Positions 8,121 to 31,300 of a stretch of DNA of 31,300 nucleotides are shown here, one piece after another. The notes beneath the pieces were generated by a model. The model had not been told where the DNA came from. It saw only the letters and a program-made list of their open reading frames with translations, and did not search any database. The stretch covers positions 1-31,300 of IMG/VR virus record IMGVR_UViG_3300044678_001328; one strand, given 5' to 3'. The translations under genes and the position numbers were made by a program. Every line of letters begins with the position of its first letter. Position 1 is the first letter of the stretch. This stretch comes from a virus.

Positions 8121-8183
8121 AATTGTTCTCTTGTTTCTATAGACGTTTGAAAGTATTATTTGGATGTATTGCGTGACGTAGGC

Positions 8184-18602: not shown

Positions 18603-18605
18603 ATC

Positions 18606-19160
18606 TTAGAATGGGAAGTCAACACGGGATTGAATCTGAGCGTAAGCCATGACTCGTTGTGTTGCAAGCAACTCCATAGAGTTAAGACGGTTTAATTGCT
18701 CAGGAGCATCTTCTTGTGAGCCACAAGCAGATTTAATTGCAAGATATACCAAGGGAATATGCAAGTCGGTTGGCAAGTCAGTTACTTGATTATTGTCCGC
18801 AACAATAGGTGTACCACGTCGGTAACCTGTAAGGCTTAATGTCGTGCTAGCGGAAATAGTTGGAACAATCGTAATTTGCTCTCCAATTTGATACCACTGG
18901 TTAGCCTCAAGCATTTGACCGTTGTACTTAACAAGCGTAACAATATACAAAGGAGTAGCAACTGAATTCAAGGAGTATGTCTGCAATCCTGCGGTAATAG
19001 TGACTGGGACATCCGCCACAGGATAGTTAAGCATACGAAAAATCTGGTGCTTGGCGTTATTAAACGCATCAAGTTTTTGAGCAGTAGTTGAGGCAAACAC
19101 AGGATATAAGTCGTTTGCAACTATCTCGTCAAAGGTTGATATAAGTTCGTTTCCAGTCAT
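18606..19160 (-). CDS. Head-tail connector / tail tube protein A-like (184 aa)
   Basis: Lies between capsid and nozzle genes, the place of T7 gp11. The sequence starts with helices (GNELISTFDEIVANDLYPVF, AFNNAKHQIFRMLNYP), has a beta-sandwich centre (VPVTITAGLQTYSLNSVATP, then IYIVTLVKYNGQML and STTLSLTGYRRGTP), and ends in a helix TQRVMAYAQIQSR. The helix-sandwich-helix order and size agree with gatekeeper proteins that bind the portal. It is preceded by a hairpin after the capsid gene. Family recognition is by order and fold pattern. Confidence 0.75.
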   Translation of the reverse strand: MTGNELISTFDEIVANDLYPVFASTTAQKLDAFNNAKHQIFRMLNYPVADVPVTITAGLQTYSLNSVATPLYIVTLVKYNGQMLEANQWYQIGEQITIVPTISASTTLSLTGYRRGTPIVADNNQVTDLPTDLHIPLVYLAIKSACGSQEDAPEQLNRLNSMELLATQRVMAYAQIQSRVDFPF

Positions 19161-19172
19161 AGCATTATAGTT

Positions 19173-19196
19173 GCCCCCTTCCCGAAGGAAGAGGGC
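19173..19196 (-). other. Stable intercistronic hairpin after the capsid gene
   Basis: On the minus strand, GCCCTCTTCC pairs over ten bases with GGAAGGGGGC (one T-G wobble) around a TTCG loop closed by C-G. No T-run follows, so it is not a full terminator. It lies between the capsid stop (19206) and the next start (19160). It may block 3' exonucleases, or partly stop transcription, so that capsid mRNA exceeds tail mRNA. Confidence 0.8.
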
Positions 19197-19205
19197 GTTG
19201 CTCCA

Positions 19206-20345
19206 TTAGAGAGCGGTAAGACCTTCGATAAGTACGCAAGCCTTAGGATTTCGTACAATCGCTTGGTCAGGGAATACCCATCGCAGTCGGTCAGCAGCGT
19301 TGAGGTTAGCGGCTGGAACCAATTCAATGTTGCTCTTTTGCATAGCAGTTCGTGCCATTGCATTAGGCATACCAGGAGTTCCAATGTCAACAAGCAACTG
19401 CCATGTGACGTTAGTTGGAACGTTAGGGTCTGGATACCATGTAACGCCTTCAAACTCAACGCATCGTCCACCATTAACAAGGAGTTTCATTTCCTCGTCA
19501 ATGCGAATTTGTCCGTATTGCTGTCGAAGCAAGAGTTCAAATGCTGCATATCGTGTAAGCGACATAGGAGCAACGAGCTTTCCTGCACCGTTACCATATC
19601 CACGAAGAGCCGCTGCCGCCGCATGAGCTTCTGTAAGAGTTGCGTTTGCGGTTGTACCTGTACCAGGCGCCCAATAATATTGAGCGGATACGGTTGTAGC
19701 TGAAGCAGTTCGTGTTTGACCTGCATAAGAGGCGTAGTTAGATTCATCAGTTCCAATGGAGCTTCGTTGAGCAACCGTTAGACCATCTGAAATCATAGCT
19801 CGGAGCGAACCAAATGAACCGTCTCCTGGCATTTTGTTTGTAGGTATAGTTGCACCAGTTGCTACTGCAAAGAGTGCTTGGCTTCGCTTGGTGATGTACT
19901 CTTGAACAAGTTGGCTAGCCAAGATTTGCTCATAGCTTACATTCGCCGCCCATCCTGCACCTTGACCTTCAATCATTCGAGCCTTGTTTACATATTGACC
20001 ACCGTCAGAATAGTAAGTAGTTCGGAACGCAAGGTCGGTGATGACTTCTTGCGGAGTAAAGGTTGAGATAGTTGCAGTTTGGTTTGCCCTTGTAACATCA
20101 GCACCAAGAGTGGTGTTGTATCCTACGAAGGAGCGAAGAATCCCGCTTCTGATTTCTGCATCGGACAATGCACCGTATGTTGGAACATCTGGTACGTTGG
20201 CAATAATGTTGTTTTGCATCTCCGCATCCTTGCCAAGAAGCAAGCCGTATGTTGGAGCTACAGGTCGTTGTGACGAATAAACGCTACCGTTTTGGATAGC
20301 AAGTTGGACTAATCCAACTTCAAAGTTAGTGGTCGCTAGTGCCAT
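19206..20345 (-). CDS. Major capsid protein (379 aa)
   Basis: The gene follows portal and scaffold, and is preceded by AAAGGAAG. The sequence has an N-arm (MALATTNFEVGLVQLAIQNG), a helix-rich middle (NVSYEQILASQLVQEYITKR), an Ala/Thr-rich insertion near 195-240 (TASATTVSAQYYWAPGTGTT), and a strand-rich C-terminus with GRCVEFEGVTWYPDPNVPTN. This is compatible with the HK97 fold, and the length is usual for podovirus shells. No protease gene is nearby, so maturation is probably without cleavage. Assignment rests on gene order and composition, since the shell fold cannot be read from motifs. A 107-aa frame over its 3' end is a shadow. Confidence 0.87.
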   Translation of the reverse strand: MALATTNFEVGLVQLAIQNGSVYSSQRPVAPTYGLLLGKDAEMQNNIIANVPDVPTYGALSDAEIRSGILRSFVGYNTTLGADVTRANQTATISTFTPQEVITDLAFRTTYYSDGGQYVNKARMIEGQGAGWAANVSYEQILASQLVQEYITKRSQALFAVATGATIPTNKMPGDGSFGSLRAMISDGLTVAQRSSIGTDESNYASYAGQTRTASATTVSAQYYWAPGTGTTANATLTEAHAAAAALRGYGNGAGKLVAPMSLTRYAAFELLLRQQYGQIRIDEEMKLLVNGGRCVEFEGVTWYPDPNVPTNVTWQLLVDIGTPGMPNAMARTAMQKSNIELVPAANLNAADRLRWVFPDQAIVRNPKACVLIEGLTAL

Positions 20346-20349
20346 TTAA

Positions 20350-21180
20350 TTATAAACTTCCTTTGTTCTGTAAGTACCAACGTCTCAAATCATCCCCTGT
20401 CAATTTGGCAAGGTCTGAGCCTGAGAAGTTGCTACCGCTTGCTCCGCTAGATGTTCCCATCTGAGGCGTAGCTTGCTTAGGTTGACGAGTTACCAAGCCT
20501 ACAGTTAATTCTGGATTCGCTTGATGTATTGCAACTAAAAGGTTTTGTGGAGTTACTTGACCTTGTTTTGGTAGAAAGGCTCGTGCTTTCAAAAGATGTT
20601 CTGGCTTGTATTCCAAACTAGACAATGGCTTAATTGCGTTCAGCAGTTTATCTGCATTAGCATTTATCCATTGAGCATCTTTCTTTTCCTGCTCCATTGC
20701 TTGGAGCTTTTGCTCAAGCTGTGTTAGCTTATCGTTCTCGACTACTGAAGCAACTGGTCTGGCTTTTACACCAAGCAGTACTTCAGGGTCAATCCCTTTC
20801 TCCCAGAGCATATCTACAAACTCTTGAACAGCAGTCTGCTCGCCTTCTGCAATCTTATCAAGTGCATTGGCAAATGATTGTGCTTGGCTCAAAGTTGATT
20901 GGACGAATTCCCTGTCTCTATGCAACTTCTCAAATCCAGCCTCAATCTCTGATGCTCGTCGTATAAGTGCGTCCTTATCGCCAGCATCTGCTAGCTTCAC
21001 AAGGTCACCTACATACTTGAGTTCTGTAGTCTCTGGTGCTTCTACACCTACTTCGTTGTCATTGATGTCAATTACTTCAGGGGCAACTTCGGGTGAAACT
21101 GCGTCCGTCTCAGTAAGCTCAATTACTGGGTCTATCTCTACTGCTGGTGTTGTCACCAGTCCCTCATTTGTTGTACTCAT
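20350..21180 (-). CDS. Scaffolding protein (276 aa)
   Basis: A highly acidic N-terminus (residues 1-60, many Glu and Asp) is followed by long charged helices: LIRRASEIEAGFEKLHRDRE and DKLTQLEQKLQAMEQEKKDA. A Gly/Ser-rich hinge (QMGTSSGASGSNFSGS) precedes a short C-terminal helix DLAKLTGDDLRRWYLQNKG, which likely contacts the capsid protein. This layout is typical of internal scaffolds that direct procapsid assembly and then leave. The gene lies between portal and capsid genes. An AGGAG site lies just three bases before the ATG, unusually close. Confidence 0.88.
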   Translation of the reverse strand: MSTTNEGLVTTPAVEIDPVIELTETDAVSPEVAPEVIDINDNEVGVEAPETTELKYVGDLVKLADAGDKDALIRRASEIEAGFEKLHRDREFVQSTLSQAQSFANALDKIAEGEQTAVQEFVDMLWEKGIDPEVLLGVKARPVASVVENDKLTQLEQKLQAMEQEKKDAQWINANADKLLNAIKPLSSLEYKPEHLLKARAFLPKQGQVTPQNLLVAIHQANPELTVGLVTRQPKQATPQMGTSSGASGSNFSGSDLAKLTGDDLRRWYLQNKGSL

Positions 21181-21197
21181 AGTCTCCTGTTGTCAGG

Positions 21198-22868
21198 TTA
21201 CGCAAGTGGAGCTTGTACCCCACTTAAATTGGATAGCATGGCTTGCATCTCTGATGGGATGCCACCTTGCATTTGTGTCTCTAAGTCTGGAGAAGTTGTA
21301 TTAGGTGCCTGAGTAGGTGGAGCTTGCGGTAAGTATTTATCAGGGTCTTCCACGTTCAATGCCTCAATCATCTTCTTAACTGCTTCTGGACTTTGGGTAA
21401 TGGCAAAAATCTTTTCGTACTTAGCTGACTCCATAGCCATCTTAGCAACTGCATCTTGGCTGAAGAGCGACTCGTCCTCAAAGTAAGGAATCTTAGCACC
21501 TTCCCACACAAGTTCACTTGTTCGCATGGGGTCACCATCATTAAAACTAATGGACGCTCCAAGGTAGTTCATTGTGAATGGAGCATTATCAAATCTCTCA
21601 GCAACCTTAGCTAGCTTAACACAGAAACCTGCATGGCTTCTCGTGAATGTTCGCAATAACGCACGATATTGACTATCCATTCGTGAGTCAATGCTTCGCA
21701 CCTCAGTAGCCGTAGTCTCTCCAGAGGTTGTAACTCCCGCCGCACTTGCAGATACCGCTGCTTGCTCCCTGTTGTCATTGATAGAAATATTCAACAAGTT
21801 CATCACGTCAGGGTTTGCACCTACTCGTGGAATCTCAATGAATGGTCTAGCCCCTAACTGGTACAAGGCTCGTGCCTTCTCCGAATCAATTTGCAGGTAC
21901 TCAACTAGCTTTGTATCCCTGTACTTAGCAAGACTCTCAGTCGTAAAGAACCCAGGCTCAATCGCTACAAACCCGTCATTGCGTGACTTGTTGCGAATGT
22001 CTGCGGTCATGGATACAATGTCAATGGCGGAGGAAAGCTGTTGCTCAATAAGTCCCATCGGTAGCAACGCACCCGACGGTTTGAAGTTTGTGTACGACTG
22101 GATTGGTATGCAACCGTACTCATTGTCCCCCTCGAATAACGGTTCATTGGAGAACTGGTCAGGGAACGCAACGTACCTGTCTTGGCTATACCACTCGATA
22201 ACCCTGACTGCTTGGGAGATATACCCAGCAGGATTAAAAAATGTTTGTCGGTATTGGTCAAACTTCTTTCCATCGAACTTGCTCTCAAATTCTGCACGTC
22301 CCATCAAGGAGATAATGCCAACGCCTTCTGAGTCATCAATGTCCCTGTATGGGTCTGAGATAACATCAAGAGGCGAGACATACTTGCCTGTTGCCCTTTG
22401 TGAGTCCTCGTACTTATTAACACAAACTTTGAGGTAGCCAATGCCAAGCATAGCAAAGTCTAGGAACGCTTGGTCGGAGTCGTTCTTAAACGCCGCATAT
22501 CCATCACTACCTTTTGAGCGTTGATTCCACCATGCCTTTCGTGCATCGTTCTGGTAGGTAGGAATACCCTGCCAGTCTGGCGTAATGTCTACTCCTCGCA
22601 CCTGAGAGTTTAAGATTCTCATGTTCTTGAGAATAGGATTGCTCTGCCTCATCTGTGCAAAGCTACGCAAGATAGGTGGAAAATAGAGAAGAGAGGTTGC
22701 TCCTGTAGCTGAATTTACTTGAGGGGTCAAGAGTTCAGGAGCATTGTTTTTAACTTCAGATTCATCCAAGCCGTAACCCATCATAATGAGTTGCAACAAA
22801 CGGTAATGGCTCACCGTGTTAGGCGAGTACCAGTACTGTAATTGTTCTTGGATATCTTGAAGTTTCAT
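21198..22868 (-). CDS. Portal protein (556 aa)
   Basis: Its length and features match podovirus portals, the dodecameric ring at the DNA entry vertex. An N-terminal helical region contains YRLLQLIMMGYGLDESEVKN; a wing follows with conserved acidic and aromatic patches (SDQAFLDFAMLGIGYLKVCV, DVISDPYRDIDDSEGVG). The long stem and crown helices include LIEQQLSSAIDIVSMTADIR and MDSQYRALLRTFTRSHAGFC. The C-terminal 40 residues are Pro/Gln-rich and probably disordered. The ATG overlaps the stop of the preceding coiled-coil gene as ATGA. The order large terminase, coiled-coil protein, portal, scaffold and capsid supports the call. Confidence 0.87.
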   Translation of the reverse strand: MKLQDIQEQLQYWYSPNTVSHYRLLQLIMMGYGLDESEVKNNAPELLTPQVNSATGATSLLYFPPILRSFAQMRQSNPILKNMRILNSQVRGVDITPDWQGIPTYQNDARKAWWNQRSKGSDGYAAFKNDSDQAFLDFAMLGIGYLKVCVNKYEDSQRATGKYVSPLDVISDPYRDIDDSEGVGIISLMGRAEFESKFDGKKFDQYRQTFFNPAGYISQAVRVIEWYSQDRYVAFPDQFSNEPLFEGDNEYGCIPIQSYTNFKPSGALLPMGLIEQQLSSAIDIVSMTADIRNKSRNDGFVAIEPGFFTTESLAKYRDTKLVEYLQIDSEKARALYQLGARPFIEIPRVGANPDVMNLLNISINDNREQAAVSASAAGVTTSGETTATEVRSIDSRMDSQYRALLRTFTRSHAGFCVKLAKVAERFDNAPFTMNYLGASISFNDGDPMRTSELVWEGAKIPYFEDESLFSQDAVAKMAMESAKYEKIFAITQSPEAVKKMIEALNVEDPDKYLPQAPPTQAPNTTSPDLETQMQGGIPSEMQAMLSNLSGVQAPLA

Positions 22869-23437
22869 TGCGTAATCTTAGACAATTCCTCAACCGTGAA
22901 TTCCCATTCCTGAGATTCTCTTATGACAGGTAGAACCTTTAACGATTCCTTTGCATCCTTGACTCTTTGCTGGCAACTTTCAATAGCAGTGGTATATTGC
23001 TCAAGAAATGGTTGGTAGTCTCCTAGGAAGGATTCTAGTTCAGCCAATTTCTTTTGTTCAATATCATACATTTCGGGTTGCTTAGCTTTGTCAATCTTTT
23101 GTAAGAGTGAGCGTTTACCTTCTACCTGCTTTACAGACGCTTCAAGTTTGCTAAGTGCATCTCGTGTTAGTGCTTCCTCTTTTTCAGCCATTCCAATTTC
23201 TCTTTGGAATTTCATAGCCAAATCCTGACGAGTCATTGCAAGATTGATGTCGTATTGACATCGAACAATTACTTTGTTGTCAATAAAATTTGCAGTCCAT
23301 GAACCTTCCTCAAGAGTGAATGAAGATTTATAGGCAAATCCTAGCGAGTGAAACCGTTGAAGGTAAACGTATTGGGCGTAAAAGAGTGCAAATGCACTTC
23401 CTGCTTTTGATGTTTTTACTGGTACGGGTTTTTCCAT
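22865..23437 (-). CDS. Coiled-coil protein between terminase and portal (190 aa)
   Basis: The N-terminal third is mixed alpha-beta (AFALFYAQYVYLQRFHSLGF, SWTANFIDNKVIVRCQYD). The rest is charged coiled coil (EIGMAEKEEALTRDALSKLE onward, then KKLAELESFLGDYQ and TTAIESCQQRVKDAKESLKV), ending in a short strand and helix. It overlaps the terminase end by 22 bp and joins the portal by ATGA, so its expression is tied to packaging genes. I do not recognise the family. Possible roles are a portal or terminase chaperone or a minor head protein; none can be shown from sequence. Confidence 0.75.
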   Translation of the reverse strand: MEKPVPVKTSKAGSAFALFYAQYVYLQRFHSLGFAYKSSFTLEEGSWTANFIDNKVIVRCQYDINLAMTRQDLAMKFQREIGMAEKEEALTRDALSKLEASVKQVEGKRSLLQKIDKAKQPEMYDIEQKKLAELESFLGDYQPFLEQYTTAIESCQQRVKDAKESLKVLPVIRESQEWEFTVEELSKITQ

Positions 23438-24666
23438 GGAAGTTCTTCGGTTAAACTAGGCGATTCTCTCGCCCAGATACTTGCCACCGAGCAAGCATCA
23501 ATCAAGTGGTCACGCTCATTTGCTTTCTTAACTCCTGTAAAGGAAGTCAAACAGCTAAACAAGTCCTGCCAACCTGGGTCTTTAACAATATACAGACGTC
23601 CCTTGGACGCTAATGTTGCCAATGGCAATGCACGTTGACGCTTGTCGCCCTGCTTGCCTCCTATCTGTTGCAACTTTACCATAGTTTTTAAAACATTGTT
23701 TCGTTGCAGTTGATTAAAGATTGCATAGCCTGTGTTGTGAGCCTCAACTACCTGATAGGTGTTTAGACCGTCCTGCATGGCTATCTCCTCCGCTCTAGTG
23801 GTCAAGTCCCCAGGACTAAGCCTCATAGAGATTGGAAAGCGTAGATAAGCGTTCCCGTTATCATCAAAGCCTAGCTTCACGCAAGCAGTTTCATCTGCGG
23901 TTTGTTTCTCGCTGGTAGCAGTATCCCATCCTCTGTACCATGTCTTGAGCATAGGACACTCATGTGGCTCAATAACTCGTTCATGAAAGTAGCTAGCAAG
24001 AAATAGGTAGCTGATGTCGTTCTCAACAAACTTGGCTTCGTACTCCTGTTGAAAGGTAGCCTCGTCCATCATGGGGTCGTTTCTAGCATCTTCGACCTCA
24101 CTAGGTGGGATGTAGGGATTACTAAGGGTTGGTCGTCTAAAGGATGCCCAGTCTTGCTTCTCTGGGTTCTCTCCTAGTTGCCATGCTTCAAAGAACCAGT
24201 TCTTTCCCTTAGGGGTTCCGTAGAAGCAACCTTGTCCTTGGTAGTCCGACAGAGTAGGACGAATAGCCTCTCGCCATATTGTTCCAAGGTCATTCACTAG
24301 ACCTGCTTCGTCTATGCCTACCTCGTGGTACTTTCTACCTCGTCCAGCGTTCTCGTCCTCAAGCGTCCAGAACTCTATTTGCCCACCCGTTATAAACTCA
24401 ATGACCCTATCGGTTCCATTAGAGCGTTTGATAATTGGCTTGCAATACTTGATAATCTTGCGGAACGGTTCGTCTAAGAACTTATAGTTGGGGGCAAACC
24501 ATCCGTAGTATTCGCTATTAATAGCTCGTTTAATGGCACGAATAATTTGATACTCAGTCTTTCCCCACCGTCTGCCACACGCAACGACATTAAACCGCTT
24601 CATCTGGCTTTCGAGTTCCGCTTGACCCTCGTGCATCTTAGGCAATTGAATCTCAATTGTTGGCAT
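23416..24666 (-). CDS. terL: Terminase large subunit (416 aa)
   Basis: The motor of DNA packaging, combining an ATPase with a RuvC-like nuclease. ATPase motifs: Walker A CGRRWGKT (residues 30-37), Walker B HEVGIDEAG (Asp119, Glu120), and the coupling motif YGTPKG (149-154). Nuclease acidic residues: GWDTATSEK (Asp248), VVEAHN (Glu308) and HLIDA (Asp390). Length is usual for compact podovirus terminases. The ATG overlaps the end of the small terminase candidate by 14 bp. Together with the circular assembly it fits headful-type or circularly permuted packaging, though cos or terminal-repeat cutting cannot be excluded. Confidence 0.96.
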   Translation of the reverse strand: MPTIEIQLPKMHEGQAELESQMKRFNVVACGRRWGKTEYQIIRAIKRAINSEYYGWFAPNYKFLDEPFRKIIKYCKPIIKRSNGTDRVIEFITGGQIEFWTLEDENAGRGRKYHEVGIDEAGLVNDLGTIWREAIRPTLSDYQGQGCFYGTPKGKNWFFEAWQLGENPEKQDWASFRRPTLSNPYIPPSEVEDARNDPMMDEATFQQEYEAKFVENDISYLFLASYFHERVIEPHECPMLKTWYRGWDTATSEKQTADETACVKLGFDDNGNAYLRFPISMRLSPGDLTTRAEEIAMQDGLNTYQVVEAHNTGYAIFNQLQRNNVLKTMVKLQQIGGKQGDKRQRALPLATLASKGRLYIVKDPGWQDLFSCLTSFTGVKKANERDHLIDACSVASIWARESPSLTEELPWKNPYQ

Positions 24667-25075
24667 CTACTAATTCTCCATCAATGAAGTTATCATCCTC
24701 ATCCATTGCCATTAAGGGAGTCTCAACAAACTTGACAAGAATAGCCGTAGACTCTAGCTTTTTCCCATCAGAGGTTATATCCATCTGGTAGAGTCCAGCA
24801 ACCTTTGCAAGTTCTGACATGGCAGAGATTTTGTCTCTATTGCTGGAGGTATCTGCATCAATGATAGAAGAAAGTACGGGAATTCTCTCAAGATAGTTTA
24901 GCCTTGCAGTCTCTCGAACAAGTTCACGTTGCTCTTTAATGTTAGTGAGACGTCGTTGTTCAATCTCATGCTTGGTTTCCGCTCTAATCTTACGCTTTTC
25001 AATGGCGTGTTTTTGCTTGCGGCTTAATAACTTAGTCTCTGAATTCTGCGACGAGTTTGTTTGCGATTGCTCCAT
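24653..25075 (-). CDS. terS: Terminase small subunit candidate (140 aa)
   Basis: Located immediately before the large terminase. The N-terminal 60 residues are strongly basic and helical (LLSRKQKHAIEKRKIRAETK), suited to binding DNA. The centre ARLNYLERIPVLSSIIDADT continues with SSNRDKISAMSELAKVAGLY, a phrase I associate with small terminase-like phage proteins. The C-terminus is acidic (DEDDNFIDGELVD) and may contact the large subunit. Its role would be recognition of the packaging site. Assigned from position plus motif. It overlaps the preceding 62-aa gene by 44 bp. Confidence 0.75.
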   Translation of the reverse strand: MEQSQTNSSQNSETKLLSRKQKHAIEKRKIRAETKHEIEQRRLTNIKEQRELVRETARLNYLERIPVLSSIIDADTSSNRDKISAMSELAKVAGLYQMDITSDGKKLESTAILVKFVETPLMAMDEDDNFIDGELVDANN

Positions 25076-25220
25076 GACCTGCTAGTTTAAGTATCTGACG
25101 AATGGTATTCATGTTCTCAACAATCTTTTTGCCAACTGCTGGTTCAATGTCAATAACAAAGATAGCAATGTTTGGGAAGATTTGGCTAATGTTTACGCCA
25201 ATGCGGAAATTCTTCTTCAC
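25032..25220 (-). CDS. Hypothetical protein, 62 aa, GTG start coupled to holin
   Basis: I place the start at a GTG that overlaps the holin stop as GTGA (25220-25217). The longer frame from 25328 would run across the holin gene. The product, KKNFRIGVNISQIFPNIAIF and then VIDIEPAVGKKIVENMNTIR, has a strand-like hydrophobic patch followed by a helix QILKLAGHGAIANKLVAEF. It could be a small soluble regulator of lysis or packaging, but no family is recognised. The 3' end overlaps the small terminase gene by 44 bp in another frame. Confidence 0.65.
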   Translation of the reverse strand: MKKNFRIGVNISQIFPNIAIFVIDIEPAVGKKIVENMNTIRQILKLAGHGAIANKLVAEFRD

Positions 25221-25405
25221 AAACCACCCAACCCTAAGGCAGTCACCGCACCAGAAACAGCACCAGCTACCCACCGTTTGAACGCCAAGACGTAGTCGAA
25301 CTTGGTATCGTCTCCAGATTTCAACCATGCGTTGCAGTCTACTAGAAATGCGGAAACGAATCCACTAATTGCACCTACGATTACTTTTTTGATTTCGTTG
25401 TTCAT
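25217..25405 (-). CDS. Holin candidate (62 aa)
   Basis: Two short hydrophobic segments, VIVGAISGFVSAFLVD (about 6-21) and WVAGAVSGAVTALGLGG (about 45-61), flank a charged loop (AWLKSGDDTKFDYVLAFKR). This is the size and shape of small two-helix phage holins; the phrase GFVSAFLVD-x-NAW is familiar from phage holins of podoviruses. I chose the ATG at 25405 because AGGGTG lies six bases upstream; the GTG at 25414 is part of that same site. It follows the phosphoesterase gene within the lysis cluster. Holins make the hole through which the endolysin escapes. Confidence 0.72.
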   Translation of the reverse strand: MNNEIKKVIVGAISGFVSAFLVDCNAWLKSGDDTKFDYVLAFKRWVAGAVSGAVTALGLGGL

Positions 25406-25415
25406 ATTGTTCACC

Positions 25416-26279
25416 CTATAAAATGGCTCTGCACCGTGTAGACAAGGTTGTACTTTTATCCTTGGTAACTTCCTCGTGCGATAACTCTAGTATAACACCA
25501 CCAAACTGTTGAGGAGAGAGATTCCAGCCCATAGCATAAGACGGAGCAGCGTCTTCTTCCGTTCCGTAGGTCGAGAGGTAGCTACCTGTCATGACGCACG
25601 TTACCTGCTTGGTTGAGGACTTATTGTGCTGACCGTAGTAGTGCATCTTGGTTGCGAGGTCTACGAACTTGTTGTGTTTATGACCAATCCACACACCGTC
25701 TACGTCACCGAGCCATGCCAGCATACGTTGAAAGTCAATGATGCCTTTTGTAACTGGAGCCGCACCACCTGCCCCGTGGTGACGATACATTGTCCAAGTC
25801 GTCTTCTTAGTGCTCCTGAGTAGGTGGATGTTCCAATACCCGCACCAACCGCCAGGTTTGATGTCTACATTCGGTAGTTGGTTCAGACGGTAGAGCAAGA
25901 TAGACATAACGTCTATGTGATGACGCTTTGCAACGTGGGCTTCGTGGTTGCCAATGCCTATAAATTCGATGAGATGGGCATAGGGCTTGAGAAACTCATA
26001 GGCGAGGTCAATCGCCGCATCAATGGGTTTAACTCCCTGCTGAATCAAGGCTCTGTCCATTGCATCAAGGTCAAATCTCTTGAGGTCGCTTGGTAGGATG
26101 AGGTCGAACACGTCACCGTTAATGGCTATCTTGCACTCTGCATCTGCCATTCTTTCTAAGTCGTGCTTAAGTGCTGACTTAGACATGGAGCTTGCTCCGA
26201 AGTGGAGGTCGCTTAAAAGCCCGAGTCTTACCTTTTGATGAACTGAGTTGATGTTAAAGGTTGTCTGTATGTTTTTGAT
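25416..26279 (-). CDS. Calcineurin-like metallophosphoesterase, apparent ATC start (287 aa)
   Basis: All metal-binding motifs of the family are present: GLLSDLHFG (Asp24, His26), NGDVFD (Asp56), GIGNHEAH (Asn111, His112), YRHHG and IGHKHNK. The enzyme should hydrolyse phosphate mono- or diesters, possibly nucleic acid. The first motif lies upstream of the only ATG (26186), in frame, so that ATG would remove Asp24 and His26. Upstream the frame is open to the TGA of the preceding gene with no ATG, GTG, TTG or CTG. An ATC at 26279 lies six bases after AGGGG and would give a natural (M)KNIQTTFNI opening. I place the start there. Read-through of TGA or a base error are alternatives. Confidence 0.85.
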   Translation of the reverse strand: MKNIQTTFNINSVHQKVRLGLLSDLHFGASSMSKSALKHDLERMADAECKIAINGDVFDLILPSDLKRFDLDAMDRALIQQGVKPIDAAIDLAYEFLKPYAHLIEFIGIGNHEAHVAKRHHIDVMSILLYRLNQLPNVDIKPGGWCGYWNIHLLRSTKKTTWTMYRHHGAGGAAPVTKGIIDFQRMLAWLGDVDGVWIGHKHNKFVDLATKMHYYGQHNKSSTKQVTCVMTGSYLSTYGTEEDAAPSYAMGWNLSPQQFGGVILELSHEEVTKDKSTTLSTRCRAIL

Positions 26280-26282
26280 GGG

Positions 26283-26504
26283 TCACCCCTGCCGTCTGTC
26301 TTGCAGTAACAAGTCTATTTTAGCCTCAATCTTTGCAACTTGTATAGGGAGGTTCTTCAAATCAGTATGTCCAGCCTCTAATTGCTTAACTCTATTCTGC
26401 AATGTACCCGTCCAAGCACTACCTGTAAGGATAGCTAATATCCAATGCCACGAGGTGTTCAAGAAGTGGAGAATTGCCGAGTCGTTAGAGGGGTCAGTTG
26501 CCAT
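26283..26504 (-). CDS. Membrane-anchored coiled-coil protein, lysis cluster (73 aa)
   Basis: One hydrophobic segment near residues 11-30 (ILHFLNTSWHWILAILTGSA) is followed by an amphipathic helix with heptad spacing (LQNRVKQLEAGHTDLKNLPI, VAKIEAKIDLLLQ) and a basic end. This resembles small N-anchored i-spanin-like or XhlA-like proteins that act with holins and endolysins. AGGAT lies before the ATG. It lies between the endolysin and the phosphoesterase, with its TGA directly in frame with the latter. Spanin or holin-accessory role is inferred from layout. Confidence 0.72.
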   Translation of the reverse strand: MATDPSNDSAILHFLNTSWHWILAILTGSAWTGTLQNRVKQLEAGHTDLKNLPIQVAKIEAKIDLLLQDRRQG

Positions 26505-26513
26505 AATAATATC

Positions 26514-27059
26514 CTATAGTTTGATGAAGTGCGTCCATGCAGAGCGTAGGCGTGAACGTCTATAGCATCCACCACCATCTCGCTGAGAACCCGTAACTCC
26601 AGATGAGGTATTGCCCTCGATGGAGTTCATGTAGTACGTCCCTGACGTTACTACGATACCCATGTGGTTTCCACCTGCCTTGAGCCATAAGCACAGGTCA
26701 CCCCTTTTAGGGTCATTAGTAATTCTCCCATTTGTCTCTGCCCACTTATGCCACTGGGCAACAGCAGCTGATGCTCTATCAGAAAGTCCAATCTGTTCTA
26801 CCTTGGCAACATCACAACAAAACTCAATCATGGCGGCACACCAAGGATAACCTTCTTCTAGTTTTACGGCTCCAAGGATAGCCTCTATCCATTCTCCATG
26901 ATTATTCTCTCCTTCCTCTCGAACCTTGATGTCATCAGCTAGAACGGCAGCGGCAAGCAGTACACGTTCACTTTTATCTAGGTCGTAGTAGTTAGGGTAT
27001 CTCACAAGAAGAATATTCCTCACTCTTGCCATTGCATCAGAAGTAGTCATTTTGGACAA
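26514..27059 (-). CDS. CHAP-type endolysin (181 aa)
   Basis: A cell-wall hydrolase. The catalytic triad expected of CHAP/NlpC-type amidase-peptidases is visible: Cys74 in YPWCAAMIEFCC, His132 in GGNHMGIVV and Asn150 in SIEGNTSSG. The N-terminal 60 residues are helical and have no signal peptide, so escape should depend on the holin. There is no separate wall-binding domain. Start choice is uncertain: TTG at 27059 lies 11 bases after GAGGAA, while the ATG at 27050 would be 20 bases away. It is the first gene of the leftward unit, so it may be made early in late transcription and held by the membrane. Confidence 0.87.
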   Translation of the reverse strand: MSKMTTSDAMARVRNILLVRYPNYYDLDKSERVLLAAAVLADDIKVREEGENNHGEWIEAILGAVKLEEGYPWCAAMIEFCCDVAKVEQIGLSDRASAAVAQWHKWAETNGRITNDPKRGDLCLWLKAGGNHMGIVVTSGTYYMNSIEGNTSSGVTGSQRDGGGCYRRSRLRSAWTHFIKL

Positions 27060-27099
27060 ATAGAAATACGTTCCTCAAAAGAAAAAAGTACCATTCCCT

Positions 27100-27105
27100 A
27101 TTATA
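27100..27105 (-). promoter_or_regulatory. Leftward late promoter -10 box (candidate)
   Basis: Minus strand TATAAT at 27105-27100, in an AT-rich run and about 40 bases before the endolysin start. No TTGACA-like -35 box lies 16-18 bp upstream; hexamer repeats and the iteron dyad occupy that place. This suggests activator-dependent or alternative use. Confidence 0.5.
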
Positions 27106-27110
27106 TATAT

Positions 27111-27134
27111 ATTTCTGTTTCTGTTTCTGTTTAT
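27111..27134 (-). repeat. Hexamer tandem repeat, four units of A(T/G)AAA(C/T)
   Basis: Read on the minus strand from 27134: ATAAAC, AGAAAC, AGAAAC, AGAAAT. The array starts three bases after the dyad at 27138-27158. The same order, dyad then 3 nt then hexamers, recurs on the plus strand at 28413-28466. Confidence 0.85.
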
Positions 27135-27137
27135 AGG

Positions 27138-27158
27138 AGGGTAGGTATAAGCTACCCT
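27138..27158. repeat. Inverted iteron dyad, copy 1 (21 bp)
   Basis: AGGGTAG (27138-27144) is inverted against CTACCCT (27152-27158) with a 7-bp spacer GTATAAG. The right arm is also the core of the first unit of the adjacent iteron array. Copy 2 at 28413 differs only in three spacer bases. Confidence 0.85.
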
Positions 27159-27183
27159 TAAGCTACCCTTAGGCTAGCCTTAT
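27151..27183. repeat. Iteron array 1, three 11-bp units
   Basis: GCTACCCTTAA, GCTACCCTTAG and GCTAGCCTTAT follow each other with no gap. The 11-bp period is about one helical turn, so bound proteins would lie on one face. Likely binding sites for the replication initiator encoded at 30253. Confidence 0.85.
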
Positions 27184-27319
27184 GTATATAATTTGAACCT
27201 AAAACTAATCAAATATGTAATACAAAGTATATATACTTATACTAAAAAAAATTAGAAAATGAAAGTAAAAAAACAGAAACAAAACAACTAGCTATACGCT
27301 AGTCGAAACATAGCCATAG
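27184..27319. other. AT-rich stretch between iteron arrays (unwinding element candidate)
   Basis: The 136 bp between the two arrays consist almost wholly of A and T in its first 110 bp, with A-runs of 7-8 and a perfect palindrome AAGTATATATACTT at 27226-27239. Such a stretch next to iterons is the usual DNA unwinding element of phage and plasmid origins. Confidence 0.6.
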
Positions 27320-27363
27320 GCTACCCTTAGGCTACCCTCAAGCTACCCTATAGCTACCCTTAT
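27320..27363. repeat. Iteron array 2, four 11-bp units
   Basis: GCTACCCTTAG, GCTACCCTCAA, GCTACCCTATA and GCTACCCTTAT follow head to tail in the same orientation as array 1. The last three positions vary, while GCTACCCT is constant. Confidence 0.88.
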
Positions 27364-27508
27364 CTACTACCTAAAATGTACTGTATGCCAAATGTGTAGT
27401 ATAAGTGATTTTGATGGTTAAAAATTTTATGGTGTGGGTAACGCTAACCGCTCCGCTCCTTCTCCACCCCCCCCCCCTAACCTTACAATCCCATGCCAAC
27501 ACTATATA

Positions 27509-27524
27509 TATATGCATGCATATA
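27509..27524. repeat. Perfect 16-bp palindrome
   Basis: TATATGCATGCATATA reads the same on both strands. It lies in alternating purine-pyrimidine sequence and could be a dimeric protein site or a cruciform/Z-DNA-prone spot. Confidence 0.8.
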
Positions 27525-27684
27525 CACTCTATATATACGGCCTCATACCTGGTCATTCACATTCTAGCTATAGATAGACTTGATAGTATAAGACTCAATA
27601 CTTGGCAGTTAGGATTACATAGCTCATCATCGAACCTATCCGCACAATCTAGATCGATAAGCGTACAATTAACCTAAAATGCAC

Positions 27685-27710
27685 TTTTTTAGACTTTTTT
27701 TTACTTTTTT
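27685..27710 (+). promoter_or_regulatory. Phased T-tracts upstream of the early promoter
   Basis: T6 (27685-27690), T8 (27695-27702) and T6 (27705-27710) have centres 11 and 9 bp apart, close to the helical repeat, and end 11 bp before the -35 box. Such tracts bend DNA and act as UP elements for RNA polymerase alpha. Confidence 0.7.
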
Positions 27711-27721
27711 CTATAACACTG

Positions 27722-27751
27722 TTGACAATCTGCCAAACATAAGCGTATCAT
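27722..27751 (+). promoter_or_regulatory. Early rightward sigma-70 promoter
   Basis: TTGACA (27722-27727), an 18-bp spacer, then TATCAT (27746-27751). Expected transcription starts near 27758, about 30 bases before the first early gene at 27790. The -10 box lies in the 13-mer ATAAGCGTATCAT, which has relatives at 27657 and 28955. Confidence 0.8.
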
Positions 27752-27789
27752 TGTTCATGAGTTCAATTTTGGGCTTATAAAGGAAACGC

Positions 27790-27996
27790 ATGGAAAAGAG
27801 AAAATCATTCTACAACTCAACCACACGGGAACGTGACATCAAAACCCTGATTACCCACATTATGGAATTGGAATCCATGTGGGAAGGTAACGAAAAAATC
27901 ACCATAGGTAAGGGGACACTTATGACACTTGCCGATCTCGCTAAGTCCATTGATGAAAAATCAGCGGATGGAATTTGGATTACCAAAAAGAACTAA
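27790..27996 (+). CDS. First early protein, 68 aa, unknown function
   Basis: The first gene after the early promoter, with AAAGGAAACGC before the ATG. The product begins with a basic segment (EKRKSFYNSTTRERDIKTLI), then helices (THIMELESMWEGNEKI, GKGTLMTLADLAKSIDEKSA) and ends WITKKN. It is small, charged and soluble, as expected for an early host-modifying protein. No family recognised. Being promoter-proximal it would be made first and in quantity. Confidence 0.8.
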   Translation: MEKRKSFYNSTTRERDIKTLITHIMELESMWEGNEKITIGKGTLMTLADLAKSIDEKSADGIWITKKN

Positions 27997-28012
27997 CATA
28001 AGGAAACATAAC

Positions 28013-28222
28013 ATGAAATACATGAACGAACATGACGCAATTGAAGCATATGAGGATATGCTTAACGACTGTTACCCTATGGCGGATATCTGCGGGTATA
28101 AGGTGCAACCTGCATACGCTCTTAAACGCTTCGATCCAACAGCCTACCGCTGTGGGTTTATTGACTGGTTGGACTCTGAGGGGCTAACTACCGATGAGAG
28201 TGAAGCGGACGAGGTGGCATAA
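28013..28222 (+). CDS. Acidic early protein, paralogue A (69 aa)
   Basis: I placed the start at the ATG at 28013 behind AAGGAAACATAAC; the frame is open to 27929, but those residues overlap the first gene. The core DAIEAYEDMLNDCYPMADIC with ALKRFDPTAYRCGFIDWLD is matched by the protein at 29011, so the two are duplicates. The L-K-x-x-D-P-T-A-Y-x-x-x-F-x-x-W-L-D motif is common in small early proteins of many phages; function is unknown. The acidic tail (TTDESEADEVA) is strongly charged and could be a DNA mimic, but that is speculation. Confidence 0.82.
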   Translation: MKYMNEHDAIEAYEDMLNDCYPMADICGYKVQPAYALKRFDPTAYRCGFIDWLDSEGLTTDESEADEVA

Positions 28223-28223
28223 G

Positions 28224-28403
28224 ATGACGCGAACATTCACGCAATCAGAAATAACCGTAGAGCGCATGATTAACGGGGGCTATAGTCTATCCGTCATCAC
28301 TGACACGGGTAACTATTACCGTATGCGTTACTATTTCTACTCACGGAAGGACGCCATGCGGCAATTCTCGCAATACGTCAGGGAACAAGAACAATCTGCA
28401 TAA
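28224..28403 (+). CDS. Hypothetical protein, 59 aa
   Basis: The ATG lies one base after the preceding stop, behind GAGGTGG within the previous gene. The product has strands (FTQSEITVERMINGGYSLSV, TDTGNYYRMRYYFYS) and a final helix RKDAMRQFSQYVREQEQ. This beta-beta-beta-alpha pattern with many Tyr and Arg suits a small nucleic-acid-binding protein, but no family is assigned. A longer start at 28194 would overlap paralogue A and adds basic residues unlike the rest. Confidence 0.75.
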   Translation: MTRTFTQSEITVERMINGGYSLSVITDTGNYYRMRYYFYSRKDAMRQFSQYVREQEQSA

Positions 28404-28412
28404 CCTAGCCTT

Positions 28413-28466
28413 AGGGTAGGTGACAGCTACCCTGACATAAACATAAACAGAAACATAAACATAAAG
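28413..28466 (+). repeat. Inverted iteron dyad copy 2 with hexamer repeats
   Basis: AGGGTAG (28413-28419) and CTACCCT (28427-28433) flank GTGACAG. After three bases follow ATAAAC, ATAAAC, AGAAAC, ATAAAC, ATAAAG (28437-28466). The design is the same as 27158-27111 but in the opposite direction. The last unit carries the AAGGA ribosome site of the gene at 28478. No T-run follows the dyad, so it is not a plain terminator. Confidence 0.88.
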
Positions 28467-28477
28467 GAACTAAACAT

Positions 28478-28735
28478 ATGAAACAATTCGACATATACAT
28501 AAGCAAGTCGCCATACCTTAAAATCATGGCTCTAACCGATGCAGGTATCAAAGCCTATAACGAGCTAGCCTATCAATGCTTGGAAGCAGGGATGACGATT
28601 CACGACATAACCATACACGACCGAGAACGCTTAGTAGGTTCGCTACGAAAGGCAGGTTACACCGTGACGTCAATCATGCCTAAGCATGAACTCAACATGA
28701 GCGATGACGATATCATGCAGGAGCTAGGGCTATGA
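28478..28735 (+). CDS. Hypothetical protein, 85 aa
   Basis: Begins after AAAGGAACTAAACAT, at the end of the dyad-hexamer element. The product has a mixed opening (KQFDIYISKSPYLKIMALTD), a helix AGIKAYNELAYQCLEAGMTI, a short strand (DITIHDRERL), another helix and a C-terminal DDDIMQELGL. It looks like a small alpha-beta protein. The stop overlaps the next start (ATGA). No family recognised. Confidence 0.77.
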   Translation: MKQFDIYISKSPYLKIMALTDAGIKAYNELAYQCLEAGMTIHDITIHDRERLVGSLRKAGYTVTSIMPKHELNMSDDDIMQELGL

Positions 28736-28938
28736 ACGTAGTAGACAGAGTTAAACAGCACCAGGAACTTCAGCGAAAGTATCCACAACTGACGCCCGAT
28801 GATATCGAACTCATGATCATCAGCGGAACATTTCAACCCGAACCAAAACCCAAAAGCCAGGGAATGACCTGGGCGGATGGCTTTTTGATGCTATTTCTGG
28901 CAGCAATCGTCATTTTTGTAGGAATTTTATTAAAATAG
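28732..28938 (+). CDS. C-tail-anchored small membrane protein (68 aa)
   Basis: Coupled to the gene before by ATGA. The first 45 residues are soluble and charged (DRVKQHQELQRKYPQLTPDD, EPKPKSQGMTW). Residues 50-67 (GFLMLFLAAIVIFVGILL) form one transmembrane helix ending in Lys. This places the N-terminal part in the cytoplasm. Early phage membrane proteins of this design often interfere with host functions or superinfection, but no role can be shown here. Confidence 0.8.
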   Translation: MNVVDRVKQHQELQRKYPQLTPDDIELMIISGTFQPEPKPKSQGMTWADGFLMLFLAAIVIFVGILLK

Positions 28939-28954
28939 TAAATTCTGACGAACA

Positions 28955-28967
28955 ATAAGCGTATAAT
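28955..28967 (+). promoter_or_regulatory. Second early promoter element ATAAGCGTATAAT (candidate)
   Basis: A perfect TATAAT (28962-28967) preceded by ATAAGCG, the same context as the -10 of the main early promoter (27739-27751) and of a third copy at 27657-27669. No TTGACA-like box at 16-18 bp. It lies 43 bases before the ATG at 29011. Confidence 0.6.
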
Positions 28968-29010
28968 AGATATACGCACAAAAGCGTAACACAAAAGGAC
29001 ACAAAAGAAC

Positions 29011-29235
29011 ATGAACAACATCGACAGAACGGACGAACACGGATATACCTTCATCAGCGAAGATGACGCCATTGAGCGATTCAATGATATGCTAGACGAG
29101 TGTTTCCCGCTGGTGCAATTCGGTAGCCTGAGTTACTCACCATCAGAGGTACTTAAGAGGGTTGACCCAACAGCGTACCATTGTGAGTTCCTCAATTGGC
29201 TAGATTGCGAAGAATTGACCATTGACGAGGACTAA
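29011..29235 (+). CDS. Acidic early protein, paralogue B (74 aa)
   Basis: Behind AAAAGGACACAAAAGAAC. It has its own upstream promoter-like element at 28955. The core DDAIERFNDMLDECFPLVQF with VLKRVDPTAYHCEFLNWLD aligns along its whole length with the 69-aa protein at 28013, and both end in an acidic tail. It has five extra residues at the N-terminus. The pair arose by duplication within the early unit and has since diverged strongly. Function unknown; the motif is widespread among phage early genes. Confidence 0.83.
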   Translation: MNNIDRTDEHGYTFISEDDAIERFNDMLDECFPLVQFGSLSYSPSEVLKRVDPTAYHCEFLNWLDCEELTIDED

Positions 29236-29290
29236 GGACAAAATCACGACACAACCAGGGGCAGTAATGCCACAACCAGGAGAACAAAAC

Positions 29291-29830
29291 ATGAAAACAC
29301 AGACACCACAAAACGCACTCACCACCGAAGCTATCAGCAAGATAACCGACAACCTACGCAAGGAGAACGAGACGAGCCTAGACGCAAAAGTTCAGGCACA
29401 AAATACCGCCGCCTTCATTGCGAACGAGTTATACCCCGTATTTAGGGCTATCTTTGAGCCAATGGTAGGGCAGAAAATAATCAAGGCTAACGGCTCACTA
29501 CTTGCAAAAGTTGAGGAGCAACTACCCAAAATCCAAAACATTTCAGGGGTGCACGTATACAGGCAAAATAGCGTATTTTGTACCTTGTGCTGGGTTGTAA
29601 AGGTATCGTGTGCTGTTAAAGATAGCCCATTTTGGGAACATAAAGAGGTTCATGTAACTATCGGGTTAATTGATGGCGTGGTGCTCGGTAAATTGGTCGA
29701 TGAGATAGACAAGAAAAGAGATGACTACGACGTAAACGAGATACGACGGCTTCAGGAAGTTTACAGGGCGAAAATGGAAGAGGCAAGACAAGCAGAACGA
29801 GCCCTTTCCCCCTTCAGATACAACGATTGA
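29291..29830 (+). CDS. Hypothetical protein, 179 aa
   Basis: I prefer the ATG at 29291, eight bases after AGGAG in a 20-base leader that is repeated exactly before the next gene; ATG 29267 and TTG 29222 are longer options. The protein starts with helices (TTEAISKITDNLRKENETSL, NTAAFIANELYPVFRAIFEP), has a strand-rich centre (GVHVYRQNSVFCTLCWVVKV, VHVTIGLIDGVVLGKLVD) and a charged coiled-coil end (VNEIRRLQEVYRAKMEEARQ). No catalytic motif is visible. It may be a DNA-metabolism accessory from its place before the replication genes. Confidence 0.77.
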   Translation: MKTQTPQNALTTEAISKITDNLRKENETSLDAKVQAQNTAAFIANELYPVFRAIFEPMVGQKIIKANGSLLAKVEEQLPKIQNISGVHVYRQNSVFCTLCWVVKVSCAVKDSPFWEHKEVHVTIGLIDGVVLGKLVDEIDKKRDDYDVNEIRRLQEVYRAKMEEARQAERALSPFRYND

Positions 29831-29854
29831 CTATAACCAACAGGAGAACAAAAC

Positions 29855-30112
29855 ATGAAACGAGCAAATAGAACAACGTCTGAAGTACTTTCAGATATGA
29901 TGGACATAATAGCAAGGAACCTAGCCGATGGACTGTTAACAGAGGAAGGATTATTTAGCAATGACTTCCGCGACCTTATGGGTGATTCACTCATAGTTAC
30001 CCAAAACATTGACGGTATGACCACGAAAGAGACGGCAGAATGCCTAGCCATTCATACCATTTACACGAGAGCAATGACCATCTTGGAGGAACGAAACAAT
30101 GCCAAAGCCTAA
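29855..30112 (+). CDS. Hypothetical helical protein, 85 aa
   Basis: Preceded by the repeated leader CAGGAGAACAAAACATGAAA. The product is mostly helical: SEVLSDMMDIIARNLADGLL, SNDFRDLMGDSLIVTQN, TAECLAIHTIYTRAMTILEE. There is no membrane segment and no known motif. Its 3' end carries the GGAGGA ribosome site of the next gene, which overlaps it by 14 bp. Function unknown. Confidence 0.75.
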   Translation: MKRANRTTSEVLSDMMDIIARNLADGLLTEEGLFSNDFRDLMGDSLIVTQNIDGMTTKETAECLAIHTIYTRAMTILEERNNAKA

Positions 30113-30260
30113 GGGCGAACCCCGAAAAACAATCGGTATCAATTTGCCCGTCAGGTACTGGTTGTGGCTCAAGGTGCAGCCCGAACCTATGAGGGCATTG
30201 ATAATGAGATTGATTGAGCAAGAGATGAGAAGGATAAAGGAGATTAAAGACCGTGAGTAA
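30099..30260 (+). CDS. Ribbon-helix-helix-like small protein (53 aa)
   Basis: Supported by GGAGGA eight bases before its ATG and by overlaps at both ends. A basic start (PKPKGEPRK) is followed by TIGINLPVRYWLWL, a strand with alternating hydrophobic residues, then two helices (PEPMRALIMRLIEQEMRRIK and a Lys/Asp end). This order, strand-helix-helix in about 45 residues, is that of Arc/CopG repressors. It would bind DNA as a dimer. Its place directly before the initiator suggests control of replication genes. Fold by pattern only. Confidence 0.72.
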   Translation: MPKPKGEPRKTIGINLPVRYWLWLKVQPEPMRALIMRLIEQEMRRIKEIKDRE

Positions 30261-30906
30261 GACAACCCCGACAGGGTGGTTCAAGTTCTATCATCGGGAC
30301 TGGGTAAGTAGTTCGACCATACGCAAGATGTCAATGACCGCTCAAGGTATCTACCTCAATCTGTTGCTACTTCAATGGGAGGATGGACAAGTGCCCGACA
30401 CACTAGAAGAGGCGGGAATGATATTGAGGCTGACAAATGAGGAAATAGACGCCTTTAAGCCCTACTTCTCAAGCCTATTCCCTGACGGTCAAAACCCTAG
30501 GCTCGCACTAGAACGCTCGAAGTCCGTTGAGTACATTGAGAAGCAGAAAAGTCACGGCAAAGCTAAGGGTAGTCCAAGGGTAGCCCCCACTAAGCCAGAA
30601 GGTAGGCAGAAGGTAGCCAAATTTGAACCGCCAACCGTTGAAGAGGTAGCGGGTCATATGCTAACCAGAAGATGGCGAAACCATGAACGCAAGGCTGAAC
30701 AATTCGTAGCATGGTATGAAGGTAAGGGATGGAAGGTAGGCAAGGCATTGATGAAGGATTGGAAGTCAGCCGTCATAACTTGGGAAGGCAAGATGGCAGA
30801 TGATGACTTTCTACCTAAGCCTAAGACGAGTCACAAGCCTGGTGAACTTGTCGAAGGTATTCACTATCAGGTCTTGCCTAGTGGCGAACGGGTGGATATG
30901 CTATGA
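30253..30906 (+). CDS. Replication initiator / helicase-loader protein, DUF1376-like (217 aa)
   Basis: The N-terminal part, GWFKFYHRDWVSSSTIRKMS with AQGIYLNLLLLQWEDGQVPD, is the signature of the DUF1376 winged-helix group found in phage replication proteins. The C-terminal part ERKAEQFVAWYEGKGWKVGK with DWKSAVITW resembles the DnaT/O-like domain that contacts the helicase. Between them, residues about 95-130 form a Lys/Pro/Gly linker. The start is a GTG, overlapping the previous gene by 8 bp. The stop joins dnaB by ATGA. I infer that it binds the 11-bp iterons and loads DnaB. The linker DNA itself carries phased iteron-like cores. Confidence 0.85.
   Translation: MSKTTPTGWFKFYHRDWVSSSTIRKMSMTAQGIYLNLLLLQWEDGQVPDTLEEAGMILRLTNEEIDAFKPYFSSLFPDGQNPRLALERSKSVEYIEKQKSHGKAKGSPRVAPTKPEGRQKVAKFEPPTVEEVAGHMLTRRWRNHERKAEQFVAWYEGKGWKVGKALMKDWKSAVITWEGKMADDDFLPKPKTSHKPGELVEGIHYQVLPSGERVDML
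30565..30616. repeat. Iteron-like cores inside the initiator gene, 11-bp phased
   Basis: AAGGGTAG at 30565 and 30576, and GAAGGTAG at 30598 and 30609, all fall on one 11-bp grid (offsets 0, 11, 33, 44). They are the reverse complement of the origin iteron core CTACCCTT. The first two extended decamers (TAAGGGTAGT, CAAGGGTAGC) match the origin unit in nine of ten bases. Confidence 0.75.
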
Positions 30907-31300
30907 ATCCGCACAACCTAGACGCTGAAAGGTGTGTACTTGGGTCGTGTATCCTAAGCACGAAGGCAAGTAGTAAGGCTATCGCACTACTTAAAGCAGA
31001 CGACTTCTTTCTACCTGCTCATGGTCTGATTTTTGAAAGTATCAAGGCTACGTTATCACAAGGCAGAGAAGTAGACTTTGTAACCGTCCGCAATGGGCTA
31101 GGCTCGAAGTTAGTAGATGCTGGTGGCATTGACTACCTGATGCAAGTTGCGGAATATGTACCTTCGGCAGCGAACATAGGAACCTATTGTGAAATAGTCA
31201 AGGACAAAGCAACAAGACGCACAATCATTCAATCTGCTAAAGGCATTGTATCCCAAGCGGTAGATGATGACGTGCCAACAAGCGAGCTAGTTCTCAACTA
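30903..31300 (+). CDS. dnaB: Replicative DNA helicase, DnaB family (5' part; continues at base 1)
   Basis: The N-terminal domain of the helicase whose ATPase part lies at 1-1037. It begins NPHNLDAERCVLGSCILSTK and continues DDFFLPAHGLIFESIKATLS, the standard N-terminal DnaB helical domain that forms the hexamer collar and contacts primase and loader. The ATG overlaps the initiator stop (ATGA), so both are translated together. The last 127 bases of the window repeat bases 1-127, so the gene should be counted once when the circle is closed. Confidence 0.95.
   Translation, partial: MNPHNLDAERCVLGSCILSTKASSKAIALLKADDFFLPAHGLIFESIKATLSQGREVDFVTVRNGLGSKLVDAGGIDYLMQVAEYVPSAANIGTYCEIVKDKATRRTIIQSAKGIVSQAVDDDVPTSELVLN
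31174..31300. repeat. 127-bp terminal direct repeat, right copy
   Basis: Identical to bases 1-127. See the left copy; it most likely reflects the overlap of a circular contig. Confidence 0.95.

Follow-up and report, generated by a model that had tools for sequence, protein, structure and literature searches.

Where does this uncultured phage begin to replicate its DNA, and which of its proteins recognizes that site? The stretch of DNA analyzed here (referred to as the window; 31,300 bases, IMG/VR record IMGVR_UViG_3300044678_001328) has identical first and last 127 bases and therefore closes to a circle of 31,173 bp. A leftward lysis and structural operon starts at an endolysin gene (27059) and continues with the large terminase gene and further genes, and a rightward early module encodes an initiator, DnaB, a Gam-like protein, an annealing protein, SSB, and RusA. 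The gene for the DnaB-like replicative helicase (first part 30903 to 31300, plus strand) spans the junction of the circle, with its end at 1037. A preliminary description had placed a replication origin between these divergent operons on a closed circle, and both the circularity and the position of an iteron block in this gap were confirmed. The GenBank phage collection held no near DNA match to positions 18000 to 31300, no Rfam family was matched, and no description of this phage group was found in the literature, as judged by titles and the beginnings of abstracts. Between the lysis and terminase genes lies an ORF for a DNA-repair-exonuclease-like protein (25416 to 26186, minus strand) with 98% protein identity to its counterpart in the close relative presented below, yet with just 62% identity at fourfold sites. 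Two paralogous small early proteins encoded in one operon (27929 to 28222 and 29011 to 29235) share PHROG families 9294, 37123, and 9396, and the DNA of the relative aligned poorly at both.

The block contains two repeat arrays. Array A (27137 to 27183, plus strand) comprises an inverted half-site, AGGGTAG (27138), and three direct 11-bp iterons (27151, 27162, and 27173); array B (27320 to 27363, plus strand) comprises four direct 11-bp iterons (27320, 27331, 27342, and 27353), with degenerate units in register upstream at 27298 and 27309. Spacing was exactly 11 bp within each array, so that the 3 + 4 units form tandem direct repeats at the helical period, as in iteron-type origins. The seven units, their common orientation, and their period agreed with the earlier account of GCTACCCTTAR copies, but just three of the seven matched this sequence exactly (two had one mismatch and two had two). 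Sites with two or fewer mismatches numbered 31 in the window, compared to 12.75 ± 3.28 in 100 dinucleotide shuffles (largest value, 21). A single array was unremarkable by itself; 4 of 100 shuffled genomes held a tandem array scoring ≥56, and 9 of 100 held a period-11 array scoring ≥40. The weight of the arrays comes from the fact that two of them share one consensus within 213 bp and are conserved. They stand out because they flank an AT-rich core and because 11 of the genome's 13 CTACCCT/AGGGTAG heptamers cluster within 27138 to 30584.

Three CTACCCT units at 11-bp spacing were found at 14 loci in viral contigs, one of which was the known relative; the other 13 were not counted as support. 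The repeat context was viewed for all 13 and the ORFs for four (L018, L020, L022, and L025), none of which had an initiator/DnaB pair like that of the window. Two of these unrelated contigs carry CTACCCT units at 11 bp that are possibly convergent iterons (L018, 10232 to 10259; L020, 12460 to 12785), close to a gene that by eye resembles a primase or helicase gene.

Between arrays A and B lies a core of exactly 136 bp (27184 to 27319; 76% AT), a probable DNA unwinding element; the AT-rich stretch and its palindrome were thus correctly described before. Two palindromes were read from the sequence, ACTAGC-TATAC-GCTAGT (27287 to 27303) and AAGTATATATACTT (27225 to 27238). Among all 136-mers of the genome, AT content peaks at 77% in the one that begins at 27183 and reaches at most 73.5% outside this region. 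Nearest-neighbor stability reached its genome minimum in windows starting at 27175 to 27205, for window lengths of 50, 100, and 136 bp alike, which places a probable AT-rich unwinding element directly beside the iterons, as in iteron origins. An expected minimum of cumulative GC skew at 27.1 to 27.4 kb did not materialize. Skew was lowest at 29,437, 2 kb rightward of the arrays and within a shallow plateau that extends from roughly 27.6 to 29.6 kb, and highest at 8,182; skew in this genome is confounded with operon orientation. A hairpin within the core (27285 to 27305, minus strand; 8-bp stem, T-rich tail) is terminator-like in the leftward direction, though no gene feeds it, and differs from the relative's version by a single change in the loop.

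The search for related phages yielded a single close relative (L009/L010, IMGVR_UViG_3300044646_000599), with 93% identity in the initiator and 99% in DnaB. With the terminase as bait, the viral contigs returned just this relative, and the species-genome collection returned nothing. The iterons were conserved next to the initiator/DnaB pair in this sole relative, with identities of 46/47 positions in array A, 134/136 in the AT-rich core, and 44/44 in array B. The noncoding block as a whole (27137 to 27440) was 98% identical (298/304), compared to 77% (496/648) at the fourfold-degenerate sites of six shared genes (Fisher test, P = 6e-21), and identity fell to 73% (203/280 alignment columns) in the intergenic DNA immediately to the right. 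Identity so far above that of fourfold sites points to constraint acting on the DNA sequence, the AT-rich part included; since the comparison involves a single close relative, a recent exchange of this piece of DNA by the two phages could be another explanation.

The ORF at 30253 to 30906 (plus strand) probably encodes a replication initiator/helicase loader, with a DUF1376-like N-terminal part and a phrog_15768 C-terminal part. The label "DUF1376-like" given earlier proved weak, as the match to Pfam DUF1376 (PF07120) reached 19.8 bits, below the gathering cutoff of 30.1. The initiator/loader role itself was supported by PHROG matches to primosomal and DnaD-like helicase-loader families and by the DnaB gene, which overlaps the 3' end of the initiator gene. 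Residues 99 to 179 matched phrog_15768 (E = 8.7e-15), a domain common to five phage homologues. NCBIfam had no family for this protein, a search of solved structures gave nothing credible (best E value, 0.11, to an unrelated enzyme), and an AlphaFold model built from two near-identical sequences was too poor to use (mean pLDDT, 42).

The initiator gene itself contains further copies of the iteron. On the opposite strand, an in-register row of five 11-bp positions (30563 to 30617, minus strand) includes good iterons at 30563 and 30574, weaker ones at 30596 and 30607, and one poor unit. The two good copies are GCTACCCTTGG at 30574 and ACTACCCTTAG at 30563, with the 11-bp register running on to 30617; the corresponding place in the relative is occupied by two perfect iterons (GCTACCCTTAA and GCTACCCTTAG). 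This array falls in the linker-coding part of the gene, 3.2 kb from the intergenic arrays. Synonymous-codon shuffles reached the score of the iteron pair in 11 of 2,000 trials for the window and 3 of 2,000 for the relative, and the five-unit score in 13 of 1,000 and 2 of 1,000, respectively. Because 11 is not a multiple of three, the repeat is not explained by a repeat in the protein. No AT-rich stretch accompanies the in-gene array, with every 50-mer of the initiator gene at ≤60% AT.

Tandem repeats were also present in the other initiator genes examined. Ten initiator genes were compared (5 of 28 phage records that matched, three loci from a DnaB search, the window, and the relative), of which those of the window and the relative are not independent of each other and those of L014 and L015 were chosen by position. 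All 10 contained a tandem DNA repeat (scores of 42 to 101), compared to 2 of 12 control genes (scores of 34 and 36). The repeat lay in the linker, except for L014 and L015, where, the proteins being short (166 and 150 amino acids), it fell near the C-terminal end. The distant homologues have in common the phrog_15768 C-terminal segment, with invariant residues, and differ in their N-terminal parts, which are O-like in L029, DnaD-like in L033, and primosomal-like in L032. Per-gene support for the linker repeat was uneven, with the observed score reached, in 500 synonymous shuffles each, 14 times for the window, 4 for L009, 0 for L029, 33 for L030, 25 for L031, 1 for L032, 0 for L033, 58 for L013, 10 for L014, and 23 for L015; the L030, L031, and L013 genes are of low complexity. 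The window's own iteron was absent as a tandem array from the eight distant-relative records searched, six of which held one or two isolated matches each (≤1 mismatch). Distal copies of the in-gene repeats were sought in the whole record for two of the eight distant relatives and in the fetched locus for six (L013 being uninformative owing to its low complexity), and the two whole-record searches, of Vibrio phages 1.061.O and 1.206.O (L029 and L033), found none. These Vibrio phages share the phrog_15768 C-terminal domain and the linker tandem repeats with the window; they differ in the N-terminal domain, in the repeat itself, and in having repeats in the gene only, unlike the window phage and its relative, which have an in-gene site plus a larger intergenic site.

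These observations support the iteron-origin interpretation made earlier, and 27137 to 27363 is probably the main theta origin, at which the product of the ORF at 30253 to 30906 would bind the iterons, melt the core, and load DnaB. Occupying the 11-bp iterons that flank the AT-rich core, in rows phased with the helix, the initiator would melt the core and hand the phage DnaB, encoded by the next gene, onto the single strands. It may also bind the inverted iterons in the linker-coding part of its own gene. That site could be either a remnant or a secondary origin; a role in autoregulation, looping, or fork control is more likely, because the site has no AT-rich neighbor and is oppositely oriented. 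Relative to the preliminary description, the in-gene inverted iterons, the dyads at 27138 and 28413, and the core as the genome's stability minimum are new.

The iteron core also forms dyads of constant spacing (AGGGTAG-N7-CTACCCT), at 27138 and 28413 in the window and at three places in the relative. The first belongs to a composite element (27105 to 27158, minus strand), in which the dyad is followed by ATAAAC/AGAAAC hexamers; it overlaps array A on the leader side of the leftward lysis and structural operon. A second element with a like dyad and hexamers (28413 to 28465, plus strand) precedes the gene at 28478, and its dyad is conserved in the relative. The two elements were identical at 39 of 51 positions (alignment score, 31; maximum of 15 in 1,000 shuffles). 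The hexamers of these 51-bp elements, each of which precedes a gene start, can also be read as AAACAG/AAACAT. The relative has an extra iteron-core dyad in an inserted early-operon stretch (L009, 5573 to 5610), there lacking the hexamers. A reading of the dyads as RNA hairpins was not favored, as their stem consists of the iteron core and no T-run is present. A probable sigma-70 promoter of the rightward early operon (TTGACA-18-TATCAT, 11/12; 27722 to 27751, plus strand) is weak by itself, given five promoter-like sites compared to a shuffle mean of 6.9; 32 of 35 bases of the stretch at 27716 to 27750 were identical in the relative. Words of the ATAAGCGTAYMAT type occur in the early region at 27657 to 27670, 27739 to 27752, and 28955 to 28967, two of which occupy probable −10 positions of promoters.

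The location of the arrays between divergent operons, together with the same-core dyads and common hexamer leader ahead of both the late operon and the gene at 28478, would also suit iterons that act as transcription factor operators for the two operons, with the AT-rich DNA being mere promoter DNA. This is unlikely, as about 360 bp separate array B from the probable early promoter (27722), a PHROG scan of 40 window proteins revealed neither a repressor nor an integrase, duplex stability across the genome is lowest in the core, and inverted iterons in the initiator's own gene better suit a replication protein. Somewhat less probable still is an origin bound by another protein, whether a host factor or one of the small early proteins: several products of the early genes lack an assigned function and the initiator's Pfam match is under the cutoff, but the iteron recurs at the linker of the initiator gene, the very place where distant family members hold their own, different repeats. 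A packaging site (cos or pac), with repeats that bind a small terminase subunit and the AT-rich core as a bend, is highly improbable, for although the block lies just upstream of a lysis gene at the head of the operon with the large terminase and repeats likewise surround a bend site in lambda cosB, the distance to the terminase genes is 2 kb, a gene for the small subunit was not recognized (24656 to 25075 matched no family), and a packaging protein would leave the iterons in the initiator gene and early operon unexplained.

The preferred reading of the block as a replication origin is best framed as a two-site iteron origin that may work like that of Bacillus phage SPP1. SPP1 gp38 is reported to bind direct repeats at oriL, inside gene 38, and at oriR, which is intergenic, both with AT-rich unwinding elements, and a proposed consequence of gp38 binding at oriR is that forks stall and the switch to concatemers is triggered (PMC6316719). 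The window resembles SPP1, as that report presents it, in having two sites with shared direct repeats, one within the initiator gene and the other, accompanied by an AT-rich unwinding element, between genes, in the neighboring DnaB-type helicase, and in the presence of an annealing protein, SSB, and a Holliday junction resolvase (PMC6316719). It differs in that the sites are 3.2 kb apart rather than about 13 kb, the arrays are on opposite strands, the in-gene array lacks the AT-rich stretch present at both SPP1 sites, no separate loader gene lies between initiator and helicase, and initiator binding, reported for SPP1, is here predicted from sequence (PMC6316719). Beyond the SPP1 layout, the iteron motif also forms the two dyad-plus-hexamer leader elements. 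In a broader scheme, which we regard as speculative and rather doubtful, one initiator and one 11-bp word would serve throughout: the protein would melt the origin, the in-gene array would be a roadblock or handcuff that limits the initiator's own expression and forces theta exit, and the leader dyads of the late operon and the early gene would make a joint switch of replication and late transcription.

The lambda ori, like the in-gene array here, is located inside the initiator gene, gene O. According to the account available for lambda ori and the O protein, its iterons lie between the DNA-binding and helicase-contacting parts, and they differ in being 19 bp long and in making up a single origin (PMC3985674); in the present phage, the intergenic arrays are the better ones and the array in the gene is short. 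The putative origin of Francisella phage KIRK is described as lying solely within a gene, of another protein family (PMC7924643).

The block provides an exact origin candidate for an uncultured phage group. Family members examined here have a swappable N-terminal domain, a fixed C-terminal domain, and repeats in the linker-coding DNA, and in the lineage of the window, the linker repeat is found at an intergenic unwinding site too, as it is in SPP1. If this pattern holds, linker repeats could reveal the origins and binding words of uncharacterized phage initiators from sequence.
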